From assembly GCF_003086895.1 (NCBI RefSeq), contig NZ_CP026004.1, positions 1,648,731 to 1,712,730 on the forward strand: a stretch of 64,000 nucleotides of DNA, written 5' to 3'. Position 1 is the first letter of the stretch, and every line of letters starts with the position of its first letter. This DNA comes from Stenotrophomonas sp. ESTM1D_MKCIP4_1 (lineage in GTDB: Bacteria > Pseudomonadota > Gammaproteobacteria > Xanthomonadales > Xanthomonadaceae). This document shows positions 10,790 through 36,100 of the stretch, piece after piece. The notes under the pieces were generated by a model. That model was not told where the DNA came from. It saw only the letters and a list, made by a program, of their open reading frames with translations, and did no database searches. The position numbers and the translations under genes are program-made.

Positions 10790-10891
10790 GGCGGGGTGGG
10801 TCCGGTTGCGGGGGACGCTGCAAGTACGTCCATGTAAGCTCGGTCGCGCCATCCATGGCGCTCACGCCCCCGCAACCGGACCCACCCCGCC
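10790..10891. repeat. Composite hairpin element, copy A
   Basis: Perfect 25-bp inverted arms (10790-10814 and 10867-10891) enclose a 52-nt core. The core starts ACGC and ends CTCACG, and holds GCTCGGTCGC followed by the small hairpin GCGCCATCCATGGCGC. Copies B to E (35030-35133, 23851-23956, 24032-24191, 35997-36100) have the same kind of core but different arms. I do not know a name for this family. Confidence 0.8.
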
Positions 10892-11100
10892 TTCGACAGT
10901 TTTCCGCGATCTGTCGGAACGGCACGGGGTCGGATCCCGTTGCTGTGCAACGGGCTCTGACCCCGGACTTGTTTCGATACCTGACAGATGTGTCGACCAG
11001 GGTCGACACCTGCCAAATGCCGCGCGCTCCAAACGTTGTTGCCGGCCAGCGGCCGGCACTACCGCAGGTGCAGGGCGCAGCCCTGCCGAAGGCACAAAAA

Positions 11101-11126
11101 AAACAGCAGGCCGAGGCCTGCTGTTT
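11101..11126 (-). terminator. Terminator of the tRNA-Arg cluster
   Basis: A stem AAACAGCAGG with CCTGCTGTTT is followed, on the minus strand, by a run of T. It lies 9 bp past the 3' end of the last tRNA-Arg gene. Confidence 0.75.
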
Positions 11127-11134
11127 CGGTGTAA

Positions 11135-11211
11135 TGGTGCGCCCGGAGAGATTCGAACTCCCGACCGCCTGGTTCGTAGCCAGGTACTCTATCCAACTGA
11201 GCTACGGGCGC
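11135..11211 (-). tRNA. tRNA-Arg(ACG), third copy in transcription order
   Basis: A 77-nt gene including an encoded CCA. The 7-bp acceptor stem is GCGCCCG with CGGGCGC, the anticodon loop CTACGAA gives ACG, and the T arm is GGGAGTTCGAATCTCTC-like. It is identical to the two other copies at 11244 and 11391. Confidence 0.97.
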
Positions 11212-11243
11212 CAATTACATAAACTTGTTGTATTGATCGTGTG

Positions 11244-11320
11244 TGGTGCGCCCGGAGAGATTCGAACTCCCGACCGCCTGGTTCGTAGCCAGGTACTCTA
11301 TCCAACTGAGCTACGGGCGC
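11244..11320 (-). tRNA. tRNA-Arg(ACG), second copy
   Basis: Identical in all 77 nt to the flanking copies, with an encoded CCA and anticodon ACG. Spacers of 32 bp and 70 bp separate it from its neighbours. The spacers lack strong promoters, so the three genes are probably co-transcribed. Confidence 0.97.
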
Positions 11321-11390
11321 GCGGTACACAATCAATTTGTTACTTCATTTTACTGCATCTTCCAGCGGCGGATGCTGGAAGCCTGTCGAG

Positions 11391-11467
11391 TGGTGCGCCC
11401 GGAGAGATTCGAACTCCCGACCGCCTGGTTCGTAGCCAGGTACTCTATCCAACTGAGCTACGGGCGC
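11391..11467 (-). tRNA. tRNA-Arg(ACG), first copy
   Basis: First of three identical tRNA-Arg genes. Its first 10 nt overlap the 3' end of the upstream hydrolase frame, whose TAG stop (11458-11460) is formed by tRNA positions 8-10 (the TAG of CCCGTAGC). The promoter at 11485-11513 lies inside that coding frame. Confidence 0.97.
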
Positions 11468-12384
11468 CCTGCGACAGGAGCGGAATTATGCGGATGTCGG
11501 CGGCTGTCGTCAACGCTTTTGTGAAAATTTTCATTCAACTGAATGAAAAAGCTCTCCGCCACAATGTCTGGCGCCTTCATCCACGCGAAGTGATCGGCAC
11601 GCGTCCCCAGTTCCTGCGCGGACAGCACGCGCACGCGTGAGGCCACATTCGGCAGCTTGGCCAGCAGCGCGTGCATGGAGCCGGGCGGCGCGAACCAATC
11701 ATCGGCCATCAGCACCGCCTGCGCGCTGCCATGGATGCGTGCCAGCTGCGCATCAAGATCCTCGTGCATGCCCACGGCGGCGTAGTGGTTGTTCAGGCCC
11801 ACACGTGCCCAGTCCGCGATCAGGCCACGCGCTTCGGTGCCGCCAAAGCCAAGGCGGCGGCCGTGCAGTACACCCTGGCGGCGCGCGATCCATGGCAGGA
11901 AGCGGTAGAACAGCGGAAGCAGCCAGCCGCGCGGGGCCGGGAACACGCGCCAGAACGGCGTGCCACTGGCCGCCAGCCACAGGCGCTGGAAACGGTCCGG
12001 GTTGCGCCCCGCATGCAGGCAGGCGAGCTGCCCGCCCAGGCTGTGTCCACCGATGATCCAGGGCAGGGCGCTGGCCGCTTCGTCTTCGCGGCCCAGCACG
12101 GCCTGGCTGGTCGGCAGATCCTGCTCGAGGATCTCGCGATACCCCCAGTCGGTGGTACGCGACGGGCGCAGGGAACTGCTGCCGTTGCCGCGCCACTCGT
12201 GCAGGTAGACGGCGACGCCACGTGCGGCCAGTGCCTGCGCCAGCGGCAGGTAGTGGCGCGCGGCCACACCCAGCGCCGGCAGCCACAGCAGGCGCGCCAC
12301 GGGGTCGGCAGGCACGCAGGCGATGATTTCGTAACGGTGGCCATCGCCGCTGTCCACGGCGAAGGTGCGCGGCGTATCGGTCAT
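11458..12384 (-). CDS. Alpha/beta hydrolase, serine aminopeptidase-like
   Basis: A 308-residue hydrolase of unknown substrate. It shows the core strand LLWLPALGVAARHYLPLAQ, the nucleophile elbow GGHSLGGQLA and a downstream acid/His region ending TRADHFAWMKAPD. Its ATG overlaps the thiD stop as ATGA, so translation is coupled. The C-terminal residues (about the last 20, FHKSVDDSRRHPHNSAP...) are encoded by the promoter and 5' end of tRNA-Arg, and the stop codon lies inside the tRNA. The functional protein probably ends close to the conserved WMKAPDIV, so the tail may be a read-into-tRNA extension. Confidence 0.82.
   Translation of the reverse strand: MTDTPRTFAVDSGDGHRYEIIACVPADPVARLLWLPALGVAARHYLPLAQALAARGVAVYLHEWRGNGSSSLRPSRTTDWGYREILEQDLPTSQAVLGREDEAASALPWIIGGHSLGGQLACLHAGRNPDRFQRLWLAASGTPFWRVFPAPRGWLLPLFYRFLPWIARRQGVLHGRRLGFGGTEARGLIADWARVGLNNHYAAVGMHEDLDAQLARIHGSAQAVLMADDWFAPPGSMHALLAKLPNVASRVRVLSAQELGTRADHFAWMKAPDIVAESFFIQLNENFHKSVDDSRRHPHNSAPVAGRP
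11485..11513 (-). promoter_or_regulatory. Promoter of the tRNA-Arg cluster
   Basis: On the minus strand: a -35 box TTGACG (11508-11513), a 17-nt spacer and a -10 box CATAAT (11485-11490), about 17 bp before the first tRNA. The match to sigma-70 is strong for such a GC-rich genome. It sits within the 3' coding part of the hydrolase gene. Confidence 0.7.
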
Positions 12385-13190
12385 GCGTGTGGCGCCGCGC
12401 CGAAGTGGTCCAGCACCAGCACCTCGCTGCGTCCGGGCGCATAGCCCTGCTGCAGGCCGCGCGCCACGTAGTCGATGCCGGCTTCGCAGGCGTTGGCCAG
12501 GCTCAACCCGTTGCACAGCTGTGCGGCGATGGCCGAGGCCAGCGTGCAGCCGGTGCCATGTGCATCCAGCGGCAGCCGTGCGTGGATGAACTCCTCGCTG
12601 CTGACGCCATCGAAATAGCGGTCGATCACCCGGTTGCCTTCATGCAGGTGGCCACCCTTCAGCAGCACCGCGCCGGCGCCCATGTCCAGCAGGGCTGCAG
12701 CGGCCTGTTCGGCCTGGTCGGCGTTGGTGATGCTGCCGCCGACCAGCAGCTCGGCTTCCGGGGTATTGGGAGTGATCAGCGTTGCCAGCGGCAGCAGGCG
12801 TTCGCGCATCGCCTGCAGCGCGCTGTCTTCCAGCAGGCGTGCGCCGCTGGTGGCGACCATCACCGGGTCCAGCACCACGTGTGCGGGGCGGCGCTGTGCA
12901 AGCACATCGGCGACGGTGTGGATGACCTCGGCATTGGCCAGCATGCCGAGCTTGACGGCGTGGATGTCGAAATCATCGAAGCAGGCGTCCAGCTGCGCGC
13001 GCAGGAAGGCGACCGGTGGCACGTGCACGGCGATGACGCCGCGGGTGTTCTGCGCCGTCAATGCTGCGATGGCGGACAGGCCATGTACGCGGTGCGCGGC
13101 GAAGGCCTTCAGATCGGCCTGGATGCCGGCGCCACCGCCGGAATCGGAGCCGGCGATGGTGAGGGCGGAAGCGGGAGTGGTCGGGCTCAT
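12381..13190 (-). CDS. thiD: Hydroxymethylpyrimidine/phosphomethylpyrimidine kinase
   Basis: Thiamine salvage and synthesis: phosphorylates HMP and HMP-P. The 269-residue ribokinase-fold protein shows [20 protein letters not shown] at the start, [34 protein letters not shown] and the anion-hole/catalytic motif [16 protein letters not shown] 13190 is the usual start. No other thiamine gene is in the window. The stop overlaps the start of a hydrolase gene by ATGA. Confidence 0.95.
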
Positions 13191-13222
13191 GCAGCGATTG
13201 TGCCGTGGTCCCGCAGGGGAAG

Positions 13223-13302
13223 GTAGATCCACGCCATGCGTGGATGCGCTGGATCCGGCAGCCGGGGTCAGAGCCTTCTACGCGGGAGAGGGATCTGACC
13301 CC
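13223..13302. repeat. SMAG-type palindrome and GGGGTC palindrome upstream of thiD
   Basis: A GTAGATCCACGCC...GGATGC palindrome at 13223-13245 is followed by a GGGGTC...GACCCC palindrome at 13264-13302. Both fall in the short gap between thiD and the DUF1275 gene. Confidence 0.65.
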
Positions 13303-13311
13303 CGCCCATCC

Positions 13312-13980
13312 TCAGTGCCGCCAGCGCGCCCACTGCTGGTACAGCACGTAGACGATGCCGGTCAGGCCGGTGAGCAGGGCAGGCGCCAGCAGGGCGTCGT
13401 AGCGGAAACGCATGAACAACCACGCGCCGAGGATGCCGCCGCCGAGGAAGCCGCTGATGATCAGGCCGCTGAGGGTGAGCCGGCGCACCTGCAGGGGCAG
13501 GCCGCGCAGCAGATGGCCCAGGCCGATGCCGAGGTCGGTGAACATGCCGCTCAGATGCGTGGTACGCACCACCGCGCCGCTGAACGTGGTGGCCATCGCG
13601 TTCTGCAGGCCGCAGGCCATGGCGGCGGCGAGGGCTCCCCAGATCTGCTGCTGCTCGAACAGTGGAATGGCCACCAGCAGCAGCGTGGATTCGATGGCCA
13701 GCGCCACGCCGTAGCGGCGGCCCAGCTGCAGGGTGTTGTCCTGGATCAGCAGGCCGCTGAGCATCGCGCCCAGCGAGAAGGCGATCAGCAGGCCCCAGAG
13801 GTGGCCCACGGCGCGCCAGTCACCCTCGGCGATGGCCATGCCCAGCTGGCTGGTGCTGCCGGTCATGTGGCTGACCGCCTGATGCTCGAAGCCCAGGAAA
13901 CCCACCACGTTGACCATGCCGGCCACGCTGGACAAGGCGACGGCGCCGATCCAGACCCAGGTGGGCAGGCGGATTCCCAT
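13312..13980 (-). CDS. DUF1275 (YoaK-like) inner-membrane protein
   Basis: A 222-residue protein with about six membrane segments. Family hallmarks are an early [11 protein letters not shown], then [11 protein letters not shown] and a repeat-like [20 protein letters not shown]. Function is unknown for the family. It lies 10 bp downstream of a small lipoprotein gene and PhoH on the same strand, so it may be the last gene of that operon. Confidence 0.85.
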
Positions 13981-13989
13981 GCCGCCGCC

Positions 13990-14499
13990 TCAGGGCGACG
14001 GCACTTTGCCGCCGTTGAACTGCAGGTCGCTGAAGCTACCGCTGGCCGGATCGAACACCGCGCCCCAGAACTGCCGGCCACCATCGCACACGCGGATCGC
14101 TTCGCGCGCCGGATTGGTTGTGGCGCCGTCAGGCAGGTGGAACGCGTTGATGTAGATCAACTGCTGGCCACCGCTTTCGATGCCCACGTACTGGCGATCG
14201 AAATCCAACACGTGCGGAACCTGGGCTTCCAGCGAGGACAGCCTGGCTTCCATCTGGTCCACCTGCTGCCGGCTCGGCGCCCAGTAACCCGTCACCCGCC
14301 CGGCCTCGCGGCCGGGGCTTGTGCGCGAGCAGGTGTCCAGCACCTGCGCGGCGATGACGGGGCGGGTGACCACCCACGATTGGCCGGTACGCTCGGCGGT
14401 CGGCACGCTGGCCGGGCCGCGCGTGGTGGTGCAGGCGGCCAGTGCGGCTGCGAGGGCGATCGCAGCCGTGGGCAGCAGCAGGCGGGTGAAACGGTTCAC
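13990..14499 (-). CDS. Small lipoprotein, function unknown
   Basis: A 169-residue protein with a lipoprotein signal ([23 protein letters not shown]). The rest is soluble and I do not recognise a domain. Two Cys beyond the lipobox (in LDTCSR and RVCDGG) could form a disulfide. The start is GTG 14499, which overlaps the phoH stop as GTGA and has GGAGGTGTT upstream, so it is translationally coupled to PhoH. Confidence 0.75.
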
Positions 14500-15896
14500 A
14501 ACACCTCCGAAGCATAATCGGCCAGGCGCGAACGCTCGCCACGGCGCAGGGTGATATGCGCACTATGCGGCCAGTTCTTGAAGCGGTCCACCGCGTAGGT
14601 CAGGCCCGAGGTGGTTTCGGTCAGGTACGGGGTATCAATCTGTTCGACGTTGCCCAGGCAGACGATCTTGGTGCCGGGGCCGGCACGGGTGATCAGCGTC
14701 TTCATCTGCTTCGGGGTGAGGTTCTGCGCCTCGTCCAGGATCAGATAACGCGACAGGAAGGTGCGCCCGCGCATGAAGTTCATCGAACGGATCTTGATGC
14801 GGCTGGCCAGCAGATCGTTGGTGGCCTGCCGGCCCCAGGTGCCGCCTTCCTGGTTGTGGGTGAGCACTTCCAGGTTGTCGGTCAGCGCGCCCATCCACGG
14901 GGTCATCTTTTCTTCTTCGGTGCCGGGCAGGAAGCCGATGTCCTCGCCCACGCTCACCGTGGCGCGGGTCATGATGATTTCGCGATAGCGCTGCTGGTCC
15001 ATCGTCTGCGCCAGGCCGGCAGCCAGGGCCAGCAGGGTCTTGCCGGTGCCGGCGGTGCCGAGCAGGGTGACGAAGTCGATCTCCGGGTCCATCAGTGCGT
15101 TGAGCGCGAAGTTCTGTTCGCGGTTGCGTGCGCTGATGCCCCACACGGCATGGCTGCCGTGGCGGAAATCATCAACCAGCGACAGCACCACCTTGCCATC
15201 GCCCACCACGCGGCTGACGCGCAGTTCGACTTCATCTTCGCCCGGCAGGTAGACGTACTGGTTCGGGTACCACTCCTCGCCGTCCTGGGCGAGGATTTCG
15301 TAGTGGGTGCGGCCCTTGTCGCTCCAGCTGCGCAGGTCCTCGCCGTGGCGCTTCCAGAAGTCTTCCGGCAGTTCGGTGGCGCCGGTGTACAGCAGGCTGA
15401 AATCATCCAGCGCGCGGTCGTTCTCGTAGTCCTCGGACACGATGCCTGCGATGGCGGCCTTGATCCGCAGGTTGATGTCCTTGGAAACGAACACCACCGG
15501 CAGGTCCGGGGTTTCTTCCTTCAGGGCAAGGATGGCGCCGAGGATGGCGTTGTCCGGGATGACCTTGCCGAAGCTCTTGCCTGCATCGAAATGGCTGGTC
15601 TGGAAGCGCAGCTTGCCGGCGCTCTGCTTGCCCCGCAATTGCAGGCCGTTGGGACGCTGCAGCGGAATGCCGTCGGCCAGGTTGTCCAGGCCCGATTCCT
15701 GCACCAGCTCGTTGAGGAAGCGGCTGACCTGGCGCGCGTTGCGGCTCGCTTCGGACGTTCCCTTCTTGCCGTTGTCCAGCTCCTCGATCACCTGCATGGG
15801 CAGGTAGACGTCATGTTCCTCGAATTTGAACAGCGCGGTGGGATCGTGCATCAGCACGTTGGTATCCAGCACGTAGATGCGCTTGCCTCGGGTCAT
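14496..15896 (-). CDS. PhoH family ATPase with N-terminal PIN domain (PhoH2-type)
   Basis: A 466-residue fusion. An N-terminal PIN nuclease domain ([37 protein letters not shown]) is followed by a PhoH RNA helicase/ATPase domain with Walker A GTAGTGKT and Walker [14 protein letters not shown]-PhoH proteins act on RNA in studied cases; the cellular target here is unknown. Two in-frame ATGs exist (15902, 15896). The second was chosen because AGGA is too close to the first. Confidence 0.92.
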
Positions 15897-15977
15897 CGTC
15901 ATTTCCTGGTTACGGACAGGGAAAAACCACCACGGCCTGCAGGGCAGGGTGATGGCGGACACAGTGGGCGTTGGGAC

Positions 15978-16457
15978 TCACTTGGATTGGGCGGCCTTCA
16001 GTTCGGCAAGCACGGCGTCGGCATGGCCGGCGACCTTGACCTTGCGCCAGGACTGGATGAGTTGGCTGTCGGGAGAAATGAGGAAGGTGCTGCGTTCGAT
16101 GCCACGTACCTGCTTGCCGTACATGTTCTTCATCTTGATGACGTCGAAGGCGGTGCACAGCGCTTCGTCGGCATCGCTGACCAGCGGAAAGTTGAAACCC
16201 TGCTTGGCGCAGAAGTTGTCGTGGGACTTGACCGAGTCGCGGGAGACGCCGAGCACGACCGCGCCGGCCTTCCTGAATTCCGGCAGCAGGGCGTTGAAGT
16301 CGATGCCTTCGGTGGTGCAGCCGGGCGTGCTGTCCTTGGGGTAGAAGTACAGCACCAGCCACTGGCCGGCGTAGTCGCCGAGGGTGGACTGGTTGCCGCC
16401 GGACAGCGCCAGCGGCAGGGAAAGGGTGGTGCTGTCCAGGGTATCGCCGTTGTTCAT
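15978..16457 (-). CDS. bcp: Thioredoxin-dependent peroxiredoxin (BCP/PrxQ type)
   Basis: Reduces hydroperoxides. The 159-residue protein has the peroxidatic motif FYPKDSTPGCTTEG (Cys in PGCT). The resolving Cys five residues later, typical of many PrxQ proteins, is not seen: the sequence reads CTTEGID. It may be a 1-Cys type or use another Cys (FCAKQG or ALCTAF). ATG 16457 is preceded by AAGGACC. It sits next to gcvR, as in E. coli. Confidence 0.9.
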   Translation of the reverse strand: MNNGDTLDSTTLSLPLALSGGNQSTLGDYAGQWLVLYFYPKDSTPGCTTEGIDFNALLPEFRKAGAVVLGVSRDSVKSHDNFCAKQGFNFPLVSDADEALCTAFDVIKMKNMYGKQVRGIERSTFLISPDSQLIQSWRKVKVAGHADAVLAELKAAQSK

Positions 16458-16549
16458 GAGGTCCTTCTGTCGAGCCTGGGTTGTTTCTACGACAATTGCA
16501 TGAAACGCCACGCGCCTGTGAGAGGCGCGCGAAAAATCCGCACTTCCGA

Positions 16550-17110
16550 TCAGAATTTCATCGGGTCCATGATCGCGTCCAGGTTCAGATGGTCGCAGAA
16601 CTCAAGGAAATCATCGCGCAGTGCAGCGATGTGCATGTTGGCCGGCACGCCGATGGTGACCTGCGCGCTGAACATTTCAGCACCGGTCTGCATGGCGCGG
16701 TAACGCGTGCTCTGCAGGTTCTCGATGGTGATGCCCTGGCGGTCGAAGAAATCGGCCAGCTGGAACAGGATGCCCGGCTTGTCGGCGGCGATCACTTCCA
16801 CGATGTACGGCAGCAGGTTGGACTGCGCCAGCTTGGCTTCCGTGCGGTACCAGACCAGCTTCAGGCCTTCCTCTCGCTCAAGCCGGGTCAGCATGGCTTC
16901 CAGCTTGGCGACCGAATCCCAGGAGCCGGTGGCCAGGGCGGTGACCGAGACATCGCGGCCCACCGTGGCCAGGCGCGCGTCCACCAGATTGCAGCCGCTG
17001 TCGGCGATGCGGCGGGTGACGGACAGCAGGGGGGACTCCGGATGCGTCGTGTAGGCGTTGATCAGGAGGTGGTTTTCGCTCGGCGCGGGGCGCGGGGTGG
17101 TGTCGGTCAA
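16550..17110 (-). CDS. gcvR: Glycine cleavage system regulator GcvR-like (double ACT)
   Basis: A 186-residue protein with two ACT domains: residues about 12-90 ([34 protein letters not shown]) and about 100-180 ([32 protein letters not shown]). In E. coli GcvR antagonises the activator GcvA. The start is taken as TTG 17110 because conserved sequence begins right after it and no ATG fits. It is divergent from dapA, the same order as in enteric bacteria. Confidence 0.82.
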
Positions 17111-17273
17111 GGCGATTCCGGGTAATGCAGGGGTGAGTCTGAATGCCCGCCGGGGGCGGGAATCCACCGGTGTCCAGCATACTTGCCCGTGCTTTCGCGC
17201 CGCAAGTAACATTCAGGGTGCCCCCGGCCTGTCGTGGCGGGCGTTTCCCTCCCCAGCCAAGAGCAGCACGTCC

Positions 17274-18167: not shown

Positions 18168-18199
18168 CCTGTTGTCGTGGCCTGATCCAGGAGATCCAC

Positions 18200-22386: not shown

Positions 22387-23811
22387 ATGTCCACAGCGAT
22401 TCCTGCAAGCGCCGGCAGCCGCGGCGAAAACACTGCCTTCATCGTCCTGATCAGCTGCGTGGCCACCCTCGGTGGTTTCCTGTTCGGCTTCGACAGTGGC
22501 GTGATCAACGGTACGGTCGACGGCCTGCGCCAGGCGTTCAATTCCAGCGAGGCGGCGCTGGGCTTCGAGGTGGCGTCGATGCTGCTGGGCTGCGCCATCG
22601 GTGCCTTCGTGGCCGGGCGCCTGGGTGACCTGCTGGGCCGGCGCAGCGTGCTGATCATCTCGGCGGTGCTGTTCCTGCTGTCGGCGCTGGGTGCGGGCGC
22701 GGCGCATGCCTCGTGGCTGTTCGTGGCCGCACGCATGGTCGGTGGCTTCGCGGTAGGGGCGGCCAGCGTGATGTCGCCGGCCTACATCGCCGAAGTGGCC
22801 TCGGCGCGCTATCGCGGCAAGCTGGCCACGGTGCAGCAGATGGCGATCATCAGTGGCCTGTTCGCAGCGTTCCTCAGCAACTTCCTGCTGGCCCGTGCGG
22901 CCGGTGCCTCCACCGAGGTGCTGTGGCTGGGGCAGGAGGCATGGCGCTGGATGTTCTGGATGCAGGCCATTCCGTCGCTGCTGTTCCTGGTGCTGCTGCT
23001 GGCCATTCCGGAAAGCCCGCGTTTCCTGGTGGCCAAGGGCCGCCACGCACAGGCCGAGGCGGTGCTGGTGAAGCTGTACGGCACGGCCGAGGCGCGGGCC
23101 AAGCGCAGCGAGATCGAGGGCAGCCTGGCCCAGGACCAGCATCGCCCGACCTTCGCCGACCTGAAGGACAAAGCCAGTGGCAAGCTGCGCGGCATCGTCT
23201 GGGTGGGTATCGGCCTGGCGGTGCTGCAGCAGCTGGTGGGCATCAACGTGGTGTTCTACTACGGCGCGGTGCTGTGGCAGGCGGTGGGCTTCTCGGAAAA
23301 CGACGCGCTGCTGATCAACGTGCTGTCCGGTGCGCTGAGCATCGGTGCCTGCCTGGTGACGGTGCTGCTGATCGACCGCATCGGTCGCAAGCCGCTGCTG
23401 TGGGTGGGTTCGGTCGGCATGGCGGTTGCGCTGGCGCTGATGGTGGTGGCCTTTGCCAGTGGCAGCCTGGTCGATGGGAAGCTGCAGTTGTCCGATGGCA
23501 TGGGCCGGCTGGCGCTGGTGGCGGCCAACGTCTACGTCGTGTTCTTCAACATGTCGTGGGGCCCGGTGATGTGGGTGATGCTGGGCGAGATGTTCCCGAA
23601 CCAGATCCGCGGCTCGGCGCTGGCGGTGGCCGGTGCGGCGCAGTGGACATCCAACTTCGCCATCACCGTCACCTTCCCGATGCTGCTGGCCGGCATCGGC
23701 CTGGCCGGTGCGTACGGCATCTACACCGTCGCCGCGTTCCTCTCCATCTTCTTCGTCATCCGCTACGTGCGCGAAACCAAGGGCAAGGAACTGGAGCAGA
23801 TGGAAGGCTGA
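22387..23811 (+). CDS. Sugar porter MFS transporter, probable xylose:proton symporter
   Basis: A 474-residue, 12-segment sugar porter. Signatures are GFLFGFDSGVINGT, GRLGDLLGRR, PESPRFLVAKGR at the end of the first half, DRIGRKPLLWVG, PVMWVMLGEMFPNQIRG and the terminal ETKGKELEQME. Position as last gene after xylBA makes D-xylose the likely substrate. A glucose or galactose porter cannot be excluded by sequence alone. Confidence 0.9.
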   Translation: MSTAIPASAGSRGENTAFIVLISCVATLGGFLFGFDSGVINGTVDGLRQAFNSSEAALGFEVASMLLGCAIGAFVAGRLGDLLGRRSVLIISAVLFLLSALGAGAAHASWLFVAARMVGGFAVGAASVMSPAYIAEVASARYRGKLATVQQMAIISGLFAAFLSNFLLARAAGASTEVLWLGQEAWRWMFWMQAIPSLLFLVLLLAIPESPRFLVAKGRHAQAEAVLVKLYGTAEARAKRSEIEGSLAQDQHRPTFADLKDKASGKLRGIVWVGIGLAVLQQLVGINVVFYYGAVLWQAVGFSENDALLINVLSGALSIGACLVTVLLIDRIGRKPLLWVGSVGMAVALALMVVAFASGSLVDGKLQLSDGMGRLALVAANVYVVFFNMSWGPVMWVMLGEMFPNQIRGSALAVAGAAQWTSNFAITVTFPMLLAGIGLAGAYGIYTVAAFLSIFFVIRYVRETKGKELEQMEG

Positions 23812-23850: not shown

Positions 23851-23956
23851 GGAGGGGGCAGGCCGCCCTCTCCAGGACACGCAAAATCCCCTCCATGGTG
23901 CTCGATGGCGCCATCCATGGCGCCAACGGTCCTGGAGAGGGCGGCCTGCCCCCTCC
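23851..23956. repeat. Composite hairpin element, copy C
   Basis: Perfect 28-bp inverted arms (23851-23878 and 23929-23956) flank a 50-nt core that begins ACGC and ends CCAACG. The core holds GCTCGATGGCGCCATCCATG. The arms share no sequence with those of copies A, B or E, apart from the GGAC/GTCC next to the core in this copy and the closely similar pair GGGAC/GTCCC in E. It lies 40 bp after the xylose transporter stop and could terminate that operon. Confidence 0.8.
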
Positions 23957-24031: not shown

Positions 24032-24191
24032 AGCCGGCGGGGCCCTCCCAGCGCTGAGCCTTCGGTCCACAGGTGGTGCCCCTACAACATTCTGGCCCCT
24101 GCAGGCCAGGACCGTTGGCGCCATGGATGGCGCCATCGAGCCCCCAGGGATGGGTTTACGGCGTGTCCTGGCCCGAAGGGCCCCGCCGGCT
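24032..24191. repeat. Composite hairpin element, copy D (interrupted arm)
   Basis: Opposite orientation to copy C. Inner arms of 9 bp (24104-24112 and 24165-24173) flank a 52-nt core. Outer arms of 15 bp (24032-24046 and 24177-24191, AGCCGGCGGGGCCCT) pair perfectly, but 57 nt (24047-24103) interrupt the left side only. It looks like an element with an insertion in one arm. Confidence 0.7.
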
Positions 24192-24255: not shown

Positions 24256-24282
24256 AAAAGCCCGCACGAAGGCGGGCTTTTT
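24256..24282 (-). terminator. Terminator of tRNA-Glu
   Basis: The stem AAAAGCCCGC with GCGGGCTTTT is followed by further T on the minus strand, 20 bp past the tRNA 3' end. Confidence 0.85.
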
Positions 24283-24301: not shown

Positions 24302-24376
24302 TGGTGCTCCCTAGGGGACTCGAACCCCTGTTTTAGCCTTGAGAGGGCCACGTCCTAACCACTAGACGAAGGGAGC
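24302..24376 (-). tRNA. tRNA-Glu(CTC)
   Basis: A 75-nt gene with encoded CCA. The acceptor stem is GCTCCCT with AGGGAGC, the anticodon stem TGGCC with GGCTA (one G-T pair), the loop CTCTCAA gives anticodon CTC, and the T arm is CAGGGGTTCGAGTCCCCTA-like. This is the CTC isoacceptor rather than the usual TTC species linked to rRNA operons. Confidence 0.95.
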
Positions 24377-28102: not shown

Positions 28103-28131
28103 CCCCGCTTTCCTTTGCGTTGTGCCGTGCC

Positions 28132-28512: not shown

Positions 28513-30023
28513 CAACGAACAACGGATTCGACTCGCTGCATTCCCACGCCCAGCGCCTGAAGGGCGCGAGCATCCCCAGCCTCCTCGCCGCCGAACCCGG
28601 CCGTGTGCAGGACCTGGCGCTGCGGGTCGGTCCGTTGTACGTCAACTTCGCGCGGCAGAAATATGATGCTGCGGCGTTGCAGGCATTGCTGGCGCTGGCC
28701 GCCGACCGTGATGTCGGCGGTGCCATCACCCGTCTGTTCCGTGGCGAGCAGGTCAACCTGACCGAGGGCCGCGCCGCGCTGCATACCGCGCTGCGTGGCG
28801 ACGTGGTTGATGCGCCGGTGGCGGCCGATGCCTATGCCACCGCGCGCGGAATCCGCGAGCGCATGGGCGTGCTGGTGCGCGCGCTGGAAGACAGCGGCGT
28901 GACCGACGTGGTCAGCGTGGGCATCGGCGGTTCCGATCTGGGCCCGCGCCTGGTGGCCGATGCACTGCGACCGGTCAGCGGCGCACGCCTGCGCGTGCAT
29001 TTCGTGTCGAACGTGGACGGCGCCGCCATGCAGCGCACGCTGGCCACGCTGGATCCGGCGAAGACCGCTGGCATCCTCATTTCCAAGACCTTCGGTACCC
29101 AGGAAACCCTGCTCAACGGGCAGATCCTGCATGACTGGCTGGGCGGCAGCGACCGCCTGTACGCGGTCAGCGCCAACCCCGAGCGTGCGGCCAAGGCCTT
29201 CGCCATCGCCGCCGATCGCGTGCTGCCGATGTGGGACTGGGTGGGCGGCCGTTACTCGCTGTGGTCTGCGGTGGGTTTCCCCATTGCGCTGGCCATCGGT
29301 TTCGAGCGTTTCGAGCAGCTGCTGGAGGGCGCCGCGCAGATGGACGCGCACGCGCTGGACGCGCCGCTGGAGCGCAACCTGCCGGTGCTGCACGGCCTGA
29401 CCGACATCTGGAACCGCAACGTGCTGGGCCATGCCACGCACGCGGTGATGACCTATGACCAGCGCCTGGCGCTGCTGCCGGCCTACCTGCAGCAGCTGGT
29501 GATGGAAAGCCTGGGCAAGCGCGTACAGCGCGACGGCCAGCCGGTCACCACCGACACCGTGCCGGTGTGGTGGGGCGGGGCGGGCACCGACGTGCAGCAC
29601 AGCTTCTTCCAGGCGCTGCACCAGGGCACCAGCATCATCCCGGCCGATTTCATCGGCTGCGTGCACAGCGATGATCCGTACACGGTCAACCACCAGGCCC
29701 TGCTGGCCAACCTGCTGGCACAGACCGAGGCGCTGGCCAACGGCCAGGCCAGCGACGATCCGCATCGCGATTACCCGGGCGGCCGCCCGAGCACGCTCAT
29801 CCTGCTCGATGCGCTGACCCCGCAGGCGCTGGGCGCGCTGATCGCCATGTACGAGCACGCCGTGTACGTACAGTCGGTCATCTGGAACATCAACGCCTTC
29901 GACCAGTTCGGCGTCGAACTGGGCAAGCAGCTGGCCAGTGGCCTGTTGCCGGCCCTGCAGGGTGAGGATGTGGCGATTGCCGATCCCATGACCCGCGAGA
30001 TCCTGGCCCAGCTGAAGCGCTGA
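28509..30023 (+). CDS. pgi: Glucose-6-phosphate isomerase
   Basis: Interconverts glucose-6-phosphate and fructose-6-phosphate. The 504-residue protein has [41 protein letters not shown] (PGI signature), [20 protein letters not shown] and the C-terminal signature [18 protein letters not shown]. It overlaps panD by 4 bp, an unusual coupling of pantothenate and sugar genes. Its last 61 bp lie within a 115-bp unit that is duplicated downstream. Confidence 0.96.
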
Positions 30024-30192
30024 GACCCTGGTAGTGCCGGCCGCTGGCCGGCATCCCCGCGATGCGTCCGGCGTTCATGAGGATGTGGCGATTGCCGATC
30101 CGATGACCCGCGGGATCCTGGCCCAACTGAAGCGCTGAGACCCTGGTAGTGCCGGCCGCTGGCCGGCATCCACACGATGCGTCCGTCGTTCA
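29963..30192. repeat. 115-bp tandem duplication including the pgi 3' end
   Basis: Copy 1 is 29963-30077 and copy 2 is 30078-30192. I count 6 differences in 115 bp. Each copy contains the last 61 bp of pgi (through its TGA), then GACCCTG, then a SMAG palindrome starting GTAGTGCCGGCCGC. The sequence TGAG stands at 29963, 30078 and 30193, consistent with slippage or unequal crossover at short homology. Confidence 0.9.
30078..30138 (+). pseudogene. Duplicated pgi 3' fragment
   Basis: A second copy of the final 61 bp of pgi, ending in its own TGA at 30136-30138. It encodes only the C-terminal tail (EDVAIADPM...LKR-like, with one residue changed) and has no start signal. A non-functional remnant of the tandem duplication. 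Confidence 0.75.
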
Positions 30193-30197
30193 TGAGA

Positions 30198-30221
30198 TTG
30201 CCGGCCAGCGGCCGGCACTAC
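30198..30221. repeat. SMAG-type palindrome, inverted copy
   Basis: The sequence TGCCGGCCAGCGGCCGGCAC ends in CTAC. With the GTAG copies at 30031 and 30146 it lies between the convergent pgi and response-regulator genes. Confidence 0.75.
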
Positions 30222-30225
30222 CGCT

Positions 30226-30789
30226 TCAGCGGCTCGGGTCGCGTTCCGGGCTCGGCCGCTTGGCCAGCTTGCGCTGCAGCGAACGGCGATGCATGCCCAG
30301 CAACCGTGCGGCCGCCGAGACGTTGCCGCCGGTCTCGTGCATTGCCTGCTGGATGTGTTCCCACTGCAGGCGGCTGATCGGCGTCATCGCGTCGGGTACT
30401 TCCAGTTCGCCGTCGTCAGCCGGGCCGTCGTCCTCCTCGCCCAGCGCGCGCAGAATCATCGGCACCGTGGAGGGCTTGGGCAGGTAGTCATCGGCACCCA
30501 GCTTGATGGCCTCGACTGCGGTCGCGATGCTGGCATACCCGGTGACCAGCAGGATCCGCATGTCCGCGCGCAGGGCGCGCAGCGGCTGGATCAGCGCCAG
30601 GCCGGAATCGCTGCCCAGCTTCAGGTCGATCAACGCAAATGCCGGCGGATGCTGGCGGGCCAGTGCCAGTGCACTGGCGGCATCCTGCGCGGTCTGCGTT
30701 TCCAGTCCCTTGCGGGCCAGGCTGCGCTGCAGGGTGCGCAGATACAGTTCGTCGTCGTCGACCAGCAGGCCGAGGGTTGAGGCGCTCAT
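30226..30789 (-). CDS. RegA/ActR/PrrA-type response regulator
   Basis: A 187-residue regulator: receiver domain (LLVDDDELYLRTL acidic pocket, phospho-acceptor Asp55 in LIDLKLGSDSG, VTGYASIATAVEAIKLGADDYLPKP), then a short Fis-type helix-turn-helix (ISRLQWEHIQQAMHETGGNVSAAARLLGMHRRSLQRKL). This layout is that of RegA/PrrA/ActR, global redox regulators in proteobacteria. Its ATG overlaps the kinase stop as ATGA. Targets are probably respiration and carbon genes; that is inference. Confidence 0.9.
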   Translation of the reverse strand: MSASTLGLLVDDDELYLRTLQRSLARKGLETQTAQDAASALALARQHPPAFALIDLKLGSDSGLALIQPLRALRADMRILLVTGYASIATAVEAIKLGADDYLPKPSTVPMILRALGEEDDGPADDGELEVPDAMTPISRLQWEHIQQAMHETGGNVSAAARLLGMHRRSLQRKLAKRPSPERDPSR

Positions 30790-32012
30790 GGGGTTTCCTC
30801 GCGTGTAGCCAGTGGCAGGCGGAAGCCGACGCGGCTGCCGACCCCCTGGGCCGGGCGCATCCACATTTCGCCCTGCAGGCGTTCGATGGTGGCATGGGAC
30901 AGGGCCAGGCCCACGCCCATGCCCTCACTCTTGCTGCTGCCGAACAGCTTGCCCGGCAGCACGGCGGCACGCGCGTTGAACCCGTGTCCGTAGTCGCGCA
31001 CTTCGCCGATGAGATCCTCGCCTTCGATGCGCAGGTCCAGGTCCACGCGCGGGCGGCCGGCCTGTTCCCCGGCGTCTGCCGCATTGTTCAGCAGCACCAT
31101 CAGCAGGTGGCCCACGCCCGGGTCGAGCGGCAGGCGCAGCGGCGCGTCGTCGTTGCGGTGCAGGTCAATGGTCGGGCGCACCAGGCGCCACTGTTCAAGC
31201 ACCTGCTGGGCGCTGGCATGGCTGCGGCCGGGGCCATCGGTGGCAGCCGGTGCGGCCAGTGCCAGCACGCGCTCGCGGCACTGCACCAGCAGTTCGCGCA
31301 GGGTTTCCATGTCCTCGCGCACCTCCGGTTCTTCGCTGCGCTCGGCTACGTCGTCGGCCAGCAGGGTCATGGTCGCCAGCGGGGTGTTCAGTTCGTGCGC
31401 CACCGACGCCGCGTGCGTGGCCAGGGCGACGATGCCTTCGTTGCGGGCGAAGCGTTCGCGCAGCGCCGAGAGCTCCAGTTCGCGCACGCGCAGGGCCATG
31501 GCCAAACGGGTGGAGAAGGTCAGCACCACCGCCGCCGACAGCAGGAAGTTGGCGACCACGCCCCAGCGGTTGAGATCCAGCGCGCGGAAATAGCCGGTGG
31601 GCAGCGGCTGGCCGAACAGCCCGCTGGCGGCGTAGCCGAGCAGGCAGGCGGTGGCCACGGCCAGGGCCCAGCGCAGGGGCAGGGCGAACGCGGCCAGGGC
31701 GATCAGGATCAGGAACAGCGAGCCGAACGGGTTGGCGATGCCGCCGCTCCAGCCAACCATCCAGGTCAGGATGATCACGTCCACCAGGATGTGGCCGAAC
31801 GCGGTCAGCGGCGCGGTGTCGTCCGGTTCGGGGCGCAGCTGCGTGTACAGGTTGAAGACGGCCAGCACGGCCACGCCCGCCCACAGGGGCAGCTGCGGCA
31901 GCGGCAGGCCCAGCACCCAGGTGGCCACCAGGATGGTCGCGGCCTGGCCGGCCACGGCCAGCCAGCGCAGGCTGCACAGGGTACGTAGGAAGGGGGCGTC
32001 GGGACCGGTCAT
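30786..32012 (-). CDS. RegB/PrrB/ActS-type redox sensor histidine kinase
   Basis: A 408-residue membrane kinase. Six hydrophobic segments fill residues about 15-170. The loop motif GGIANPF (90-96) matches the quinone-sensing heptapeptide of RegB. The phospho-His is His206 in ASVAHELNTPLAT, and Cys245 in VQCRERVL is placed like the redox-active Cys of RegB. The ATPase domain has NNAADAGEQAG, DYGHGF and GMGVGLALSHATIERLQG. ATG 32012 starts the first membrane segment region. It is coupled to the response regulator. Confidence 0.9.
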   Translation of the reverse strand: MTGPDAPFLRTLCSLRWLAVAGQAATILVATWVLGLPLPQLPLWAGVAVLAVFNLYTQLRPEPDDTAPLTAFGHILVDVIILTWMVGWSGGIANPFGSLFLILIALAAFALPLRWALAVATACLLGYAASGLFGQPLPTGYFRALDLNRWGVVANFLLSAAVVLTFSTRLAMALRVRELELSALRERFARNEGIVALATHAASVAHELNTPLATMTLLADDVAERSEEPEVREDMETLRELLVQCRERVLALAAPAATDGPGRSHASAQQVLEQWRLVRPTIDLHRNDDAPLRLPLDPGVGHLLMVLLNNAADAGEQAGRPRVDLDLRIEGEDLIGEVRDYGHGFNARAAVLPGKLFGSSKSEGMGVGLALSHATIERLQGEMWMRPAQGVGSRVGFRLPLATREETP

Positions 32013-32114
32013 GCCCGCCCATCGTATGCGTTCACCGGGCAACCTGCCTGCGACAATCGGCCGCAGATGTGCCGCCGCCTGAATGGGAATCGCCCGGAAT
32101 GCAGGGCCGGGCGG

Positions 32115-32120
32115 TAGAAT
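32115..32120 (+). promoter_or_regulatory. Candidate -10 box directly before ispG
   Basis: The sequence TAGAAT ends 6 bp before the ispG ATG. If used, transcription would begin at or very near the start codon, giving a leaderless mRNA. No clear -35 is seen. Confidence 0.35.
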
Positions 32121-32126
32121 GCGCCC

Positions 32127-33392
32127 ATGCACGACGCCGTCACCCGCCCGACCCAACCCTCCGATGCCACTGCCTGGTCCCGTCGCCAGACCCATGCCGT
32201 CCAGATCGGCGGGGTCACCGTAGGCGGCGGCAAGCCGGTGGTGGTGCAGTCGATGACCAACACCGACACCGCCGACCTGGCCTCCAGCGTGAAGCAGGTG
32301 GCCGAGTTGTGGCGGGCCGGTTCGGAAATGGTGCGCCTGACCGTCAATACCGTGGAAGCGGCTGCGGCCATTCCGCGCATCGTCGACAAGCTGGCGATGA
32401 TGGGCATCGAGGTGCCGCTGATCGGTGACTTCCACTACAACGGCCACCAGCTGCTGACCGCCGAACCGGCCTGTGCCGAGGCGTTGGCCAAGTACCGCAT
32501 CAACCCGGGCAACGTCGGTTTCGGCAAGAAGAAGGACCTGCAGTTCGCCCAGCTGATCGAATTCGCCATCCGCTACAACAAGCCGGTGCGCATCGGTGCC
32601 AACTGGGGTTCGCTGGACCAGGCCCTGGCGGCGAAGCTGATGGACGAGAACAACCACCGCGAACAGCCCTGGGACGCCGGCCGCGTGCTGCGCGAGGCGC
32701 TGATCCGTTCGGCGCTGGATTCGGCCGAGCAGGCGGTGGAGATCGGCCTGCCGCGTGATCGCATCATTCTTTCGGCCAAGGTCAGCGGCGTGCAGGAACT
32801 CATCGCGGTGTACCGCGATCTGGCCCAGCGTTCGGATTTCGCCCTGCACCTGGGCCTGACCGAAGCCGGCATCGGCAGCAAGGGCATCGTCGCGTCGGCG
32901 GCGGCGCTGAGCGTGCTGCTGCAGGAAGGCATCGGCGACACCATCCGCATTTCGCTGACCCCCGAGCCGGGGCAGTCGCGTACGCAGGAAGTGATCGTCG
33001 CGCAGGAACTGCTGCAGACCACCGGCCAGCGCGCCTTCACGCCGCTGGTCACGGCCTGCCCGGGCTGCGGGCGCACCACCTCCGAGTTCTTCCAGGAACT
33101 GGCCAAGGTCGTGCAGAACCACGTGCGCGAAAAGATGCCGGTGTGGAAGGTGCAGCACCCCGGCGCGGAGAACATGACCCTGGCCGTGATGGGCTGCATC
33201 GTCAACGGACCGGGCGAGTCGCGCCACGCCAACATCGGTATTTCCCTGCCGGGTACCGGCGAAACGCCGGCCGCGCCGGTGTTCGTCGATGGCGAGAAGA
33301 AGGTGACCCTGCGTGGTGACAACATCGCCCAGGAATTCGTTGCCCTGATCGACGAATATGTCGAACAGAAGTATGTCCGGATTGCCGGATAA
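32127..33392 (+). CDS. ispG: 4-hydroxy-3-methylbut-2-enyl-diphosphate synthase (flavodoxin)
   Basis: Penultimate step of the MEP isoprenoid pathway; a 4Fe-4S enzyme. The 421-residue protein has an N-terminal barrel ([45 protein letters not shown]) and a C-terminal cluster domain with [13 protein letters not shown] and [11 protein letters not shown] that supplies the three Cys ligands. The extended barrel length is that of the gammaproteobacterial form. The PAP2 gene overlaps its 3' end. Confidence 0.96.
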
Positions 33393-34122
33393 GCCGGCGA
33401 TCCTGGCCGCGCCGGAACCGGCGTCCGGCTTCCGACACTGGATGGCGCGCAACGCGTGGCGCCTGGTGCTGCTGTTTGCCGGCGTGCTGCTGCCGCTGGC
33501 CTGCTTCGTCGCACTGGCCGATGAAGTGCATGAGTTCGAGTCGTTCCATTTCGATGCCCCGCTGCTGTGGCAGATGCACGGGCTGCATTCGCCGTGGCTG
33601 GACCGATTTTTCGTGCTGCTGTCGAAACTGGGCTACGAATGGTTCCTGATCCCGGCCGACGTACTCATCGTCGCCCTGCTGCTGTGGCACAGGCGTTGGC
33701 GCGAGGCGACCTTCGTGGCGGTGTGCTTCGTCGGCTCTGCGCTGCTGAACATGGGCAGCAAGCAGTTTTTCCAGCGTGACCGCCCCAGCCTGTGGGAATC
33801 GATCGCGCCGGAATCCACGTTCAGCTTCCCCAGCGGGCATGCGATGGGCAGCATGACCCTGGCGGCGACCCTGGTGCTGCTGGCCTGGAACACCCGCTGG
33901 CGCTGGCCGGTGCTGGTGCTGGCGCCGCTGTTCAGCCTGCTGGTCAGCGTCTCGCGGGTCTATCTGGGGGTGCATTACCCCTCCGATATCCTCGCCGGAT
34001 GGTGTGCGGCGCTGGTTTGGGTGGTAGGGTGCTATCTGGTCATGTTCCGTCGCCGGCAACCCTGGCGACACCGCGGTTCGCCGCAAGCAGCGGCCAGCGA
34101 AGCGATCGCAACAGGGGAGTGA
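33358..34122 (+). CDS. PAP2-family membrane phosphatase
   Basis: A 254-residue membrane phosphatase with about six segments. The three PAP2 motifs are present: [20 protein letters not shown], and [16 protein letters not shown]. Substrates in the family include undecaprenyl pyrophosphate and phosphatidylglycerol phosphate; overlap with ispG hints at isoprenoid pyrophosphate but does not prove it. The start may be ATG 33358 or ATG 33373; both overlap ispG. Confidence 0.88.
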
Positions 34123-34322
34123 CGTGGATGCCCCTTCACGGGTGTCCATGAAAGAGCAGGTTGTTTCGTTGTAGCGGGTTCTGTGGGACAGGGGGCAACA
34201 TCGATGTGCGAAGAATGTGATGCGCAAGGCAGAACGCCGTTTTTGCGCAGTCATCGTGCTTGCGGTGCTGGGGTGCCCTGCCTAGCGTGGCCCGCAATGG
34301 CCGCATTCGATGAGGTACGTGA

Positions 34323-34970
34323 ATGACGATTCGAGTCTACCTGGTGGACGACCACGCGCTGGTCCGCACCGGTATGAAGATGATCCTGTCGGGTGAATCC
34401 GACATCGAGGTCGTGGGGGAAGCCGAGACCGGCGAGGATGGGCTGCGCGAGATCCGCCAGCTGCTGCCGGACGTCGTGCTGTGCGATCTGCACCTGCCGG
34501 GTGTCAGTGGCATGGAGGTGACCGAACGCATCGTGCGTGGCCACCGTGCCACCCGCGTGGTGATCGTTTCCGTGCTGGAGGATGGACCGCTGCCCAAGCG
34601 TCTGCTGGAAGCGGGTGCCGCCGGTTACATCGGCAAGGGCTGCGATGCGCAGGAACTGCTGCGTGCGGTGCGTGACGTGGCGGCCGGCCGCCGTTACCTG
34701 GGCACCAGCATCGCGCAGAACCTGGCGCTGTCCACGGTGGAAGGCAATGCCTCGCCGTTCGACACGCTGTCGCCGCGTGAACTGGAAGTGGCACTGCTGC
34801 TGACCCAGGGGCTGCGCCAGGAAGACATCGCACGGCGCCTGAGCCTGAGTGCGAAGACGGTGAACACGCACAAGGCGCGGTTGTTCGAGAAGATGGGGAT
34901 CAGCGACAACATTGCGTTGGCGCGCATGGCCAGCCAATACGGGCTGGTGGATCCGGCACGGCCGCTGTAA
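34323..34970 (+). CDS. uvrY: UvrY/GacA/SirA-type response regulator (NarL family)
   Basis: A 215-residue regulator. The receiver domain has VYLVDDHALVRTGMKMIL and phospho-Asp55 in VLCDLHLPGVSG, with Lys in AAGYIGKG. The C-terminal LuxR-type helix-turn-helix is LSPRELEVALLLTQGLRQEDIARRLSLSAKTVNTHK-like. In relatives this regulator, with the BarA/GacS kinase, drives CsrB-type small RNAs. No kinase or uvrC neighbour is in the window. A 200-bp upstream gap separates it from the PAP2 gene. Confidence 0.9.
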   Translation: MTIRVYLVDDHALVRTGMKMILSGESDIEVVGEAETGEDGLREIRQLLPDVVLCDLHLPGVSGMEVTERIVRGHRATRVVIVSVLEDGPLPKRLLEAGAAGYIGKGCDAQELLRAVRDVAAGRRYLGTSIAQNLALSTVEGNASPFDTLSPRELEVALLLTQGLRQEDIARRLSLSAKTVNTHKARLFEKMGISDNIALARMASQYGLVDPARPL

Positions 34971-35029
34971 CAGGGTTCGGCCAACGGCGAAGCCCCTCGC
35001 GGTGGTGGTGCGGTTGGATTTCTGGGGTT

Positions 35030-35133
35030 GGCCGGGCGGATGGGCTGTACAGGGGACGCTGCAAGTACGTCCCTGTAAGCTCGGTCGCCGCATCCATGCG
35101 GCTCACGCCCCTGCACAGCCCATCCGCCCGGCC
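35030..35133. repeat. Composite hairpin element, copy B
   Basis: Inverted arms of 26 nt (35030-35055 and 35108-35133) pair with one mismatch, which is a G-U in RNA. The 52-nt core is nearly that of copy A. Where they differ, in the small hairpin (GCCGCATCCATGCGGC here, GCGCCATCCATGGCGC in A), both sides change together and pairing is kept. It lies between convergent uvrY and eda. Confidence 0.8.
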
Positions 35134-35215
35134 ATGGACAGTTTCCGTGCGCCGCCACCGCGGAATGAAGAAGGAAGAGCAGGAGCGGGGCGCGCGCTTT
35201 GCGCGCTCGTTGCCC

Positions 35216-35256
35216 GGGGTCGGATCCCTTTCCCATCGGGAAAGGGCTCTGACCCC
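35216..35256. repeat. GGGGTC...GACCCC palindrome next to eda
   Basis: The sequence starts GGGGTCGGATCCCTTTCCC and ends GGGAAAGGGCTCTGACCCC. It lies 10 bp past the eda stop on the minus strand and could serve as its terminator. Confidence 0.65.
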
Positions 35257-35265
35257 CGCTAAGCG

Positions 35266-35925
35266 TCAGTGGCCGCGGACGCGCTTGATGATCTTGGCGG
35301 CGTCGGCAGCGCTGGCGCGCACCTTGTCCCACTCGCCGTCGGCGATCCAGTTGCCCGGCACCATCCACGAGCCACCGATGCAGACCACGTTCTTCTGCTC
35401 CAGGTACTCGGCAGCGGTGTTTTCAGTGATGCCACCGGTCGGGCACAGCTTGAGGTCGGCGACCGGGCCAGCCAGGCCCTTGATCATCGCCAGGCCCCCC
35501 ACGGCCGTAGCCGGGAACAGCTTGCACACCCGGAAACCGCGCGCGTAGAGCGACAGCAGCTCGGTCGGCGTGGCCGCACCCGGCACCACCGGCAGCGGCG
35601 CGGCCGCCAGTGCATCGGCCAGCACCGGTGGCGTACCCGGCGTCACCAGGAAATCCGCACCTGCATCGATGGACTGCTGCATCTGCTCCACGGTCAGCAC
35701 CGTACCTGCACCCACCACCACATCGGGCAGCTCGCGCTTGAGCATCGCCAGCGCTTCCATCGCCACCGGCGTACGCAGCGTCAACTCGATGGCCGGCAGG
35801 CCACCTTCCAGCAGCGCCGCACTCACCGCGCGCGCCTGGTCCAGCGTATGAATCGTCACCACCGGCAGAATGCCCGCCGCATGCAGCAGTTCCGCCGCCT
35901 TCACCTGATGTTGCTCGATACCCAT
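35266..35925 (-). CDS. eda: KDPG/KHG aldolase
   Basis: Last step of the Entner-Doudoroff pathway: splits KDPG to pyruvate and glyceraldehyde-3-phosphate. The 219-residue barrel has the catalytic Glu in AIELTLRTP, VGAGTVLT, VTPGTPP and the Schiff-base Lys135 in RVCKLFPAT. It is last gene of the zwf-glk-pgl-edd-eda set, separated from edd by 205 bp that hold composite hairpin E. Confidence 0.95.
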   Translation of the reverse strand: MGIEQHQVKAAELLHAAGILPVVTIHTLDQARAVSAALLEGGLPAIELTLRTPVAMEALAMLKRELPDVVVGAGTVLTVEQMQQSIDAGADFLVTPGTPPVLADALAAAPLPVVPGAATPTELLSLYARGFRVCKLFPATAVGGLAMIKGLAGPVADLKLCPTGGITENTAAEYLEQKNVVCIGGSWMVPGNWIADGEWDKVRASAADAAKIIKRVRGH

Positions 35926-35996
35926 GCTTTTGCCCTTGCCTTTGCTCTTCTTGATTCAGTGGCCGCAGCGCAAATGACGCGCCGGGAATTGTCCAA

Positions 35997-36100
35997 GGGC
36001 AGTAGAGCGCCCTGGTCGGGACCGTGAGCGGCATGGATGCCGCGACCGAGCCCCCATGGATGGGTTTACGGCGTGTCCCGGCCAGGGCGCTCTACTGCCC
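35997..36100. repeat. Composite hairpin element, copy E (between edd and eda)
   Basis: Inverted arms of 26 nt (35997-36022 and 36075-36100) pair with one G-U type mismatch around a 52-nt core. The core is in the opposite orientation to copies A to C. It is the only copy between two genes of the same operon and might lower eda expression relative to edd, or protect edd mRNA 3' ends. Confidence 0.8.

Follow-up and report, generated by a model that had tools for sequence, protein, structure and literature searches.

The 64,000-nucleotide (nt) window analysed here, positions 1,648,731 to 1,712,730 of contig NZ_CP026004.1 of Stenotrophomonas sp. ESTM1D_MKCIP4_1 (GCF_003086895.1; 4.48 Mb in one contig), contains five copies (A to E) of a composite hairpin in which a conserved core is enclosed by long self-complementary arms. 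These copies were found to belong to a real dispersed family of structured hairpins, a widespread repeat with about 100 copies in this genome. The family, its paired structure, the asymmetry between its strands, the constraint on its loops and its position between genes could all be read from comparison of sequences. The interpretation we prefer, which we hold to be about evenly balanced between right and wrong, is that the element is a dispersed RNA module that would bind a dimer of CsrA/RsmA.

The size and spread of the family were estimated with patterns and with a covariance model, the latter having been called for by an earlier, sequence-only reading of the window. The pattern CTCGRTSGCN{2,8}CATCCATG matched 49 times in the own genome and its reversed form matched 0 times. 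The covariance model gave at least 105 matches at E ≤ 0.01, 97 of them with E < 1e-11, a lower bound because 150 of the 4011 candidates were scored. It also matched in 47/276 genomes of a class sample, 15/61 of an order sample and 10/150 of a phylum sample (all ten of the same class or closer), under stricter filters by which weak matches were lost; the repeat is therefore not, as had been supposed at first, bound to the species. All 16 of the 16 genomes picked for holding the pattern had model matches, from 3 to at least 150 each. A pattern scan of named genomes, with at least 118 matching stretches, placed the core in Xanthomonas, Stenotrophomonas, Lysobacter, Marinobacter, Haliea, Halopseudomonas, Rheinheimera, Idiomarina, Saccharospirillum and others. 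Across the class, a strict pattern returned only 3/274 genomes since it fixed one loop form, and the covariance model was used instead. The spread is patchy, as four of five genomes of the genus had at least 80 matches and the fifth (G165) had none. A search of 50,697 phage and 72,556 plasmid records with one 116-base Xanthomonas query was negative, although copies have no more than the core in common and the test is therefore weak; one short query likewise drew no match from E. coli genomes. Two assemblies titled as Klebsiella pneumoniae metagenome-assembled genomes (L066 and L103) carry the element though E. coli gave no match, and their titles may be wrong.

The architecture of a long stem capped by two small hairpins, proposed earlier from the window copies, is supported by covariation. 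In an alignment of 45 cores (A2), 17 of 20 pairs had two-sided changes and the covariation score was 0.577 vs 0.154 in shuffled alignments, a score reached by 0/500 shuffles, and at most 0.108 when the structure was slid. The covariation is strong, and in this the earlier reading was right. Similarly, 16/20 pairs had two-sided changes in an alignment of 74 matches from other genomes (A4; 64 distinct), with a score of 0.663 vs 0.166 shuffled and at most 0.114 slid; A4 was fitted to the same model and so leans towards it, and it includes orthologous and some repeated loci. The count of two-sided pairs in A4 was reached by 39/500 shuffles, and further pair types were not above those of shuffles (reached by 93/500 in A2 and 379/500 in A4). 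RNAalifold gave much the same structure on either strand. When copies A, B, C and E were folded on both strands (D being left out), all 8 folds beat 200 shuffles each, with z from -6.0 to -10.0. The minimum-energy folds of A and B on the strand with GGA in its loops do not show both cap hairpins together, so the two-hairpin cap rests on covariation and not on these folds. By eye, the first Y and the R (A2 columns 54/57) of the bulge YUYRC that follows hairpin 2 seem to covary, as U..A or C..G, which looks like pairing across two bases.

The strand under selection is, judged from the wobble pairs, the GGA-loop strand, the opposite of the first description, which had taken the loops as ATCC. Unpolarised arm mismatches, written on the TCC strand, were 36 A·C vs 4 G·T among 52 own copies, with 246 vs 40 among 134 others. 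Although the arms of the window copies are unrelated to each other, as had been said, this did not hold for the family: arms pooled from many genomes (194 distinct copies) fell into clusters of 30, 21, 21, 12, 6, 6, 3, 3 and smaller with 70 singletons, and the own copies show recurring arm types. In the eight clusters of three or more copies, polarised one-sided transitions gave on the GGA strand 36 G·U vs 2 A·C, alongside 80 double Watson-Crick changes and 17 transversions; these wobble statistics count copies, not events. With one representative per cluster (89 clusters) the ratio was 121 G·U vs 22 A·C. Mutational asymmetry was rejected as the cause, as the transitions comprised C>T 23 and A>G 13 vs G>A 1 and T>C 1, both kinds in excess and therefore not one mutational bias, and the sign was the same beside genes of either orientation (22:2 and 14:2 for own copies, 120:14 and 54:8 for others) and where no gene was called (44:8). 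A lean to the GGA strand is also seen within the core, both in hairpin 1 (13:7) and in the seven innermost pairs of the long stem (17:8). Substitution in the stems seems to be compensatory and to pass through wobble intermediates. The arm asymmetry implies that the RNA would be read on the - strand for A, B and C and on the + strand for D and E.

On the GGA strand both loops read C-A-N-G-G-A-Y-G, where N and Y are variable positions. ANGGA was present in 72/74 rows of A4 in loop 1 and 73/74 in loop 2, and in 50/62 rows for each loop in a third alignment (A3) of 62 matches at own loci missed by the first pattern, six rows of which are low-scoring shadows on the opposite strand. The third letter of the A4 loops is T, G, A or C and the seventh mostly C/T, whereas the other letters (C, A, G, G, A and the closing G) are nearly invariant; few unpaired bases are as constrained as those of the two ANGGA loops. 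These statistics were taken on model-found matches because the search patterns fixed some loop letters, and loop 1 carries a possible bias, the model having been trained on CATGGATG there. Of the 64 distinct rows, hairpin 2 reads UAC-ANGGAY-GUA in about 40 and is closed by CC(C) in about 21. The loop pair fits the CsrA consensus RUACARGGAUGU obtained by systematic evolution of ligands by exponential enrichment (SELEX), in which ACA and GGA are fully conserved; the ligands had mostly six-base loops with AC/GU closing, and CsrA bridged two sites 10-63 nt apart, best above 18 (PMC7652899). The two GGAs start 22-23 nt apart in the five window copies, so that one CsrA/RsmA dimer could hold both. 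With ANGGA in the hairpin loops and two sites at a bridging distance, CsrA/RsmA is the best candidate ligand predicted from the loops.

The copies lie at the borders of the spacers between genes, their RNA 3' side turned to the nearer gene. Gene context came from a simple open reading frame caller trained on the window, which is less sure outside the genus, and every copy examined fell outside the genes that it called. Among copies flanked by called genes on both sides, the 3' side was nearer a gene than the 5' side in 46/47 own and 85/98 other copies; this was the majority in each of four gene arrangements, at only 3/5 in the divergent class elsewhere. The sequence-only reading had missed that most copies have a neighbour within 1 kb (81 of the at least 105 matches), nearly always as an outward-facing pair: 39 of the 41 pairs were outward and 2 tandem. 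In Xanthomonas hortorum, among 115 matches listed, 14/20 pairs were outward, 4 tandem and 2 inward. Spacer interiors appeared by eye to be rich in other palindromes.

From these features we infer transcription of the GGA-loop strand, binding of CsrA/RsmA, and capture or control of spacer transcripts with some titration of RsmA. The stem of ~25-28 bp, free in sequence if paired, would hold up a conserved three-way junction and two short hairpins, each presenting A-N-G-G-A in a six-base loop. As the copies stand at spacer borders with the RNA 3' side to the nearest gene, RNA leaving the spacer, either as antisense into a gene end or as read-through toward a promoter, would carry the module. The regulation of CsrA by small RNAs (sRNAs) is treated in PMC9788540 and PMC5864184.

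Several observations weigh against this proposal. Hairpin 1 can exceed the four or fewer pairs of most SELEX winners (PMC7652899). RsmU, another RsmA ligand, still bound after its GGAs were changed, according to PMC7694677, and motif presence alone is therefore weak proof. Extra ANGGA in the flanks was rejected as a family feature because it is enriched in own copies only (12/60 and 20/60 vs 6.3 and 5.1 in shuffles, compared with 5/109 and 8/109 vs 8.9 for both in the copies elsewhere). With only 2 G·U and 4 A·C, the mismatches in hairpin 2 do not discriminate between the strands, and on the other strand the loop position Y, where C or U stands opposite A, would form a G-U/A-U pair. Between same-direction genes, antisense and sense orientations of the RNA strand are about equally common (17:12 for own copies, 23:27 for others), which is odd for an element of messenger RNA (mRNA), and inspection by eye of the 5' flanks of 55 copies showed no conserved promoter.

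The csrA gene was present in 31/31 element-bearing genomes tested, which fits the proposal; it was also present in 12/14 genomes without a model match. These 14 belonged to 19 comparison genomes, of which the other five, members of the genus left out of the model search (four without an E-locus copy, one unreadable there), all had csrA. Thus csrA is compatible with the spread of the element and does not explain it. A second csrA gene was rejected as the partner, as most genomes of both kinds have one csrA. G165 of the same genus, which lacks the element, has a second csrA-like gene, and neither csrA nor the element was matched in G434 and G441 of the same order.

A possible but rather less probable explanation is that the element marks the spacer border by its long stem alone, the 25-28 bp duplex being cut by an RNase III type of activity or stopping the polymerase, so that genes would be insulated from antisense and read-through transcription and CsrA would be irrelevant. 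The outward pairs and the 3' side proximity to genes suit it. At the B locus, which holds a copy in 8/18 genomes, the gap in 4 of the other 10 (L223, L224, L225 and L228) is by eye a terminator-like hairpin of 50-55 bp instead, whereas the C/D locus keeps a terminator-like hairpin beside the element. Furthermore, terminator-like sites on the GGA strand within 500 nt of 54 copies numbered 18 on the 5' side vs 2 on the 3' side, an asymmetry confounded by the gene that is soon entered on the 3' side. Both of the 3'-side sites were 100 nt or more from the core centre; such sites after the hairpin are few and no U-tract directly follows the stem, so the element is not an intrinsic terminator. The strong constraint on the two ANGGA loops is what the stem alone leaves unexplained.

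CsrB, RsmX, RsmY and RsmZ are sponges encoded by one or a few sRNA genes. Like them, the present element has several hairpin loops with GGA that could hold CsrA dimers, and it differs in having about 100 dispersed copies of two sites each; a search limited to the window found none of these sRNAs at gathering scores. An extension of the CsrA/RsmA proposal, which we think unlikely though worth stating, is that ~100 two-site hairpins at spacer borders form a distributed sponge that replaces or supplements CsrB-type sRNAs. If true, free RsmA would be tied to the amount of antisense and read-through transcription, which would answer how RsmA is opposed in Xanthomonadaceae. In Xanthomonas, homologues of CsrB/RsmX/Y/Z were not found according to PMC7694677, nor were CsrB and CsrC according to PMC7286519, and the family offers candidate RsmA ligands in bacteria whose relatives reportedly lack classical sponges. 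In broader terms, what was supposed to be a DNA repeat of one species becomes a widespread RNA family with an assigned strand and a testable partner.

Three of the window loci were followed across the genus. Both anchors of the E locus were present in 22 of 26 genomes, the own included, and 17/22 have a copy at the corresponding position. These copies comprise by eye about eight arm types, and their stems are still paired; the five genomes without a copy had a gap of 24-53 bp. Such near-complete turnover of a stem with pairing kept at one locus offers a clean natural test of RNA-level selection in high-copy repeats. Both anchors of the C/D locus were found in 18 genomes, 11 with copies or remnants and 7 with none. 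The remnants, classified by eye, included two-copy fusions (L285, L290) and centre-deleted palindromes (L287, L289), from which copies seem to be lost by palindrome deletion. In L282 and L288 other sequences, seemingly repeats, are inserted in the hairpin loops at this locus.

The E locus bears on a further explanation, that the element is a selfish mobile palindrome resembling repetitive extragenic palindromes (REPs) or miniature inverted-repeat transposable elements, with single-stranded DNA hairpins recognised by a transposase and the strand bias arising from single-stranded DNA. We regard it as improbable, since the E-locus copies keep pairing by two-sided changes across species and mobility alone has no such need. 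The copy number, the all-or-none spread and the paired inverted units would suit mobility, as would an array in L202 (3287-4276; genome 2436786-2437775), where about 3 tandem copies of a 341-bp unit, with 96% matches, each hold one element match on the + strand. In addition, GT[AG]G occurs on the TCC strand within 12 nt of the stem in 28/60 own copies (shuffled mean 10), an excess that is absent elsewhere (18/110, shuffled mean 19). The phage and plasmid search, weak as it was, gave no support. The sole partner candidate, a DUF4357 gene (GIY-YIG-like by eye only) flanked by two copies in a low-copy genome (L196), was rejected, with homologues in 3/34 genomes with vs 4/26 without a model match.

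The REP/GTAG (SMAG) palindromes and bacterial interspersed mosaic elements resemble the present family as high-copy extragenic palindromes in inverted pairs in the same genome, and GTAG-type palindromes were seen by eye to share spacers with element copies. REPs are described in PMC3733652 and PMC3686654 as palindromes of 20-40 bp with a terminal GTAG/GTGG. In contrast, the element units are about 100 nt, their stems appear to be under RNA-type pairing selection on one strand, and GT[AG]G touches the stem on the TCC strand in only 9/60 own and 3/110 other copies and on the GGA strand in 0 and 0, unlike a REP.

The nearest database family is Ysr224 (RF02770), a Yersinia sRNA. The statement that no named family was known with this architecture was therefore only partly correct, as the core resembles one already in Rfam, while the match stays below the cut-off. 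The core aligns over model positions 1-107, and Ysr224 shares ACGCCGUAAA, GGCUCGA and GCGCCAUCC-UGGCGC with the copy L032, on which the full-length match scored 36.8 bits (E 2.3e-7) against a gathering score of 70; at that score neither the window nor 18 loci gave a match. The Ysr224 model describes the opposite, TCC strand, a further point against the CsrA/RsmA proposal; its other strand shows CAGGGATG and CATGGATG, and the minimum-energy fold of that whole strand lacks the two cap hairpins. That the functional RNA is this TCC-loop strand, as a 3' untranslated region hairpin of the neighbouring gene, is very unlikely, because 36/38 one-sided arm transitions give A·C there and break pairing and 19 own copies adjoin a predicted start rather than a stop, even though 32 own copies lie about 24-167 nt past a same-sense gene end (one a transfer RNA, tRNA) and Ysr224 is listed as temperature-responsive (PMC9029176). 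In the same source Ysr224 is one of the sRNAs with the highest abundance across bacteria, all its instances being counted. A multi-copy family would explain this abundance and give it a likely meaning. We found no description of Ysr224 as a paired repeat or CsrA ligand in the literature searched.

TwoAYGGAY (RF01731) is alike on the same strand, with a long outer stem and two hairpins with AYGGAY-type loops, and was proposed as CsrA-binding in PMC4333381. Its core sequence differs, its best match in the own genome was 34.4 bits vs a cut-off of 43, and it had no match at gathering score in 18 loci. RsmU of Xanthomonas campestris, compared by its description only, is an RsmA-binding RNA from a related genus whose sequence starts 25 bp after a stop codon; it is reported in PMC7694677 as conserved only in Xanthomonas and processed in sense from the comEA mRNA. 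A match of C4 antisense RNA to one copy (35.8 bits against a cut-off of 45) was taken as a likeness of shape, and the many microRNA families in permissive Rfam scans look like chance matches to long stems. In the literature searched, which left out subscription papers and supplements, no description of the family as a dispersed CsrA-type RNA was found.

All five copies marked in the window from its sequence alone were present, each with the conserved core inside self-complementary arms, and the stem lengths given for A, B, C and E were right: on the GGA strand the 25 bp of A and the 28 bp of C are Watson-Crick throughout, and B and E (26 bp each) have one G·U. Copy A (10790-10891; RNA on -; core match of model R1 about 10808-10875) has the - strand loops CATGGATG at 10850-10857 and CATGGACG at 10827-10834, and stands between a predicted + gene ending at 10671 and - strand tRNA genes at 11138-11467. 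Copy C (23851-23956; RNA on -), 40 bp past the stop of the predicted + gene 22387-23811, has loop 1 CATGGATG at 23912-23919 and a degenerate loop 2, CATGGAGG, at 23890-23897, and is the left half of an outward pair with D. Copy D (24032-24191; RNA on +) has loops CATGGATG at 24122-24129 and CAGGGATG at 24145-24152. It is damaged, with 15 outer pairs before its 5' arm is interrupted, whereas the relative L283 has by eye an uninterrupted hairpin in the same place; it is followed by an intrinsic-terminator-like hairpin (24256-24282) and tRNA-Glu (24305-24376, -). Copy B (35030-35133; RNA on -; loops CATGGATG at 35091-35098 and CAGGGACG at 35068-35075) lies between the predicted convergent genes 34323-34970 (+) and 35266-35925 (-). 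Copy E (35997-36100; RNA on +), with CATGGATG in both loops (36032-36039 and 36055-36062), fills the gap between the latter and another predicted - strand gene, 36131-38047.

Some other repeats accompany the copies. At 10730-10770 and beside several own copies, GTCAAC-like hexamer runs separate the element, on its RNA 3' side, from the gene end, and at 35215-35260 and in spacer interiors a palindrome, GGGGTCGGATCCC...GGGCTCTGACCCC, and GTAG-type palindromes occur between paired copies. Elsewhere, window positions 55088-55174 (+) match C4 antisense RNA (RF01695) with 51.4 bits against a gathering score of 45; this RNA is known from phages, and so a prophage may lie around that site.

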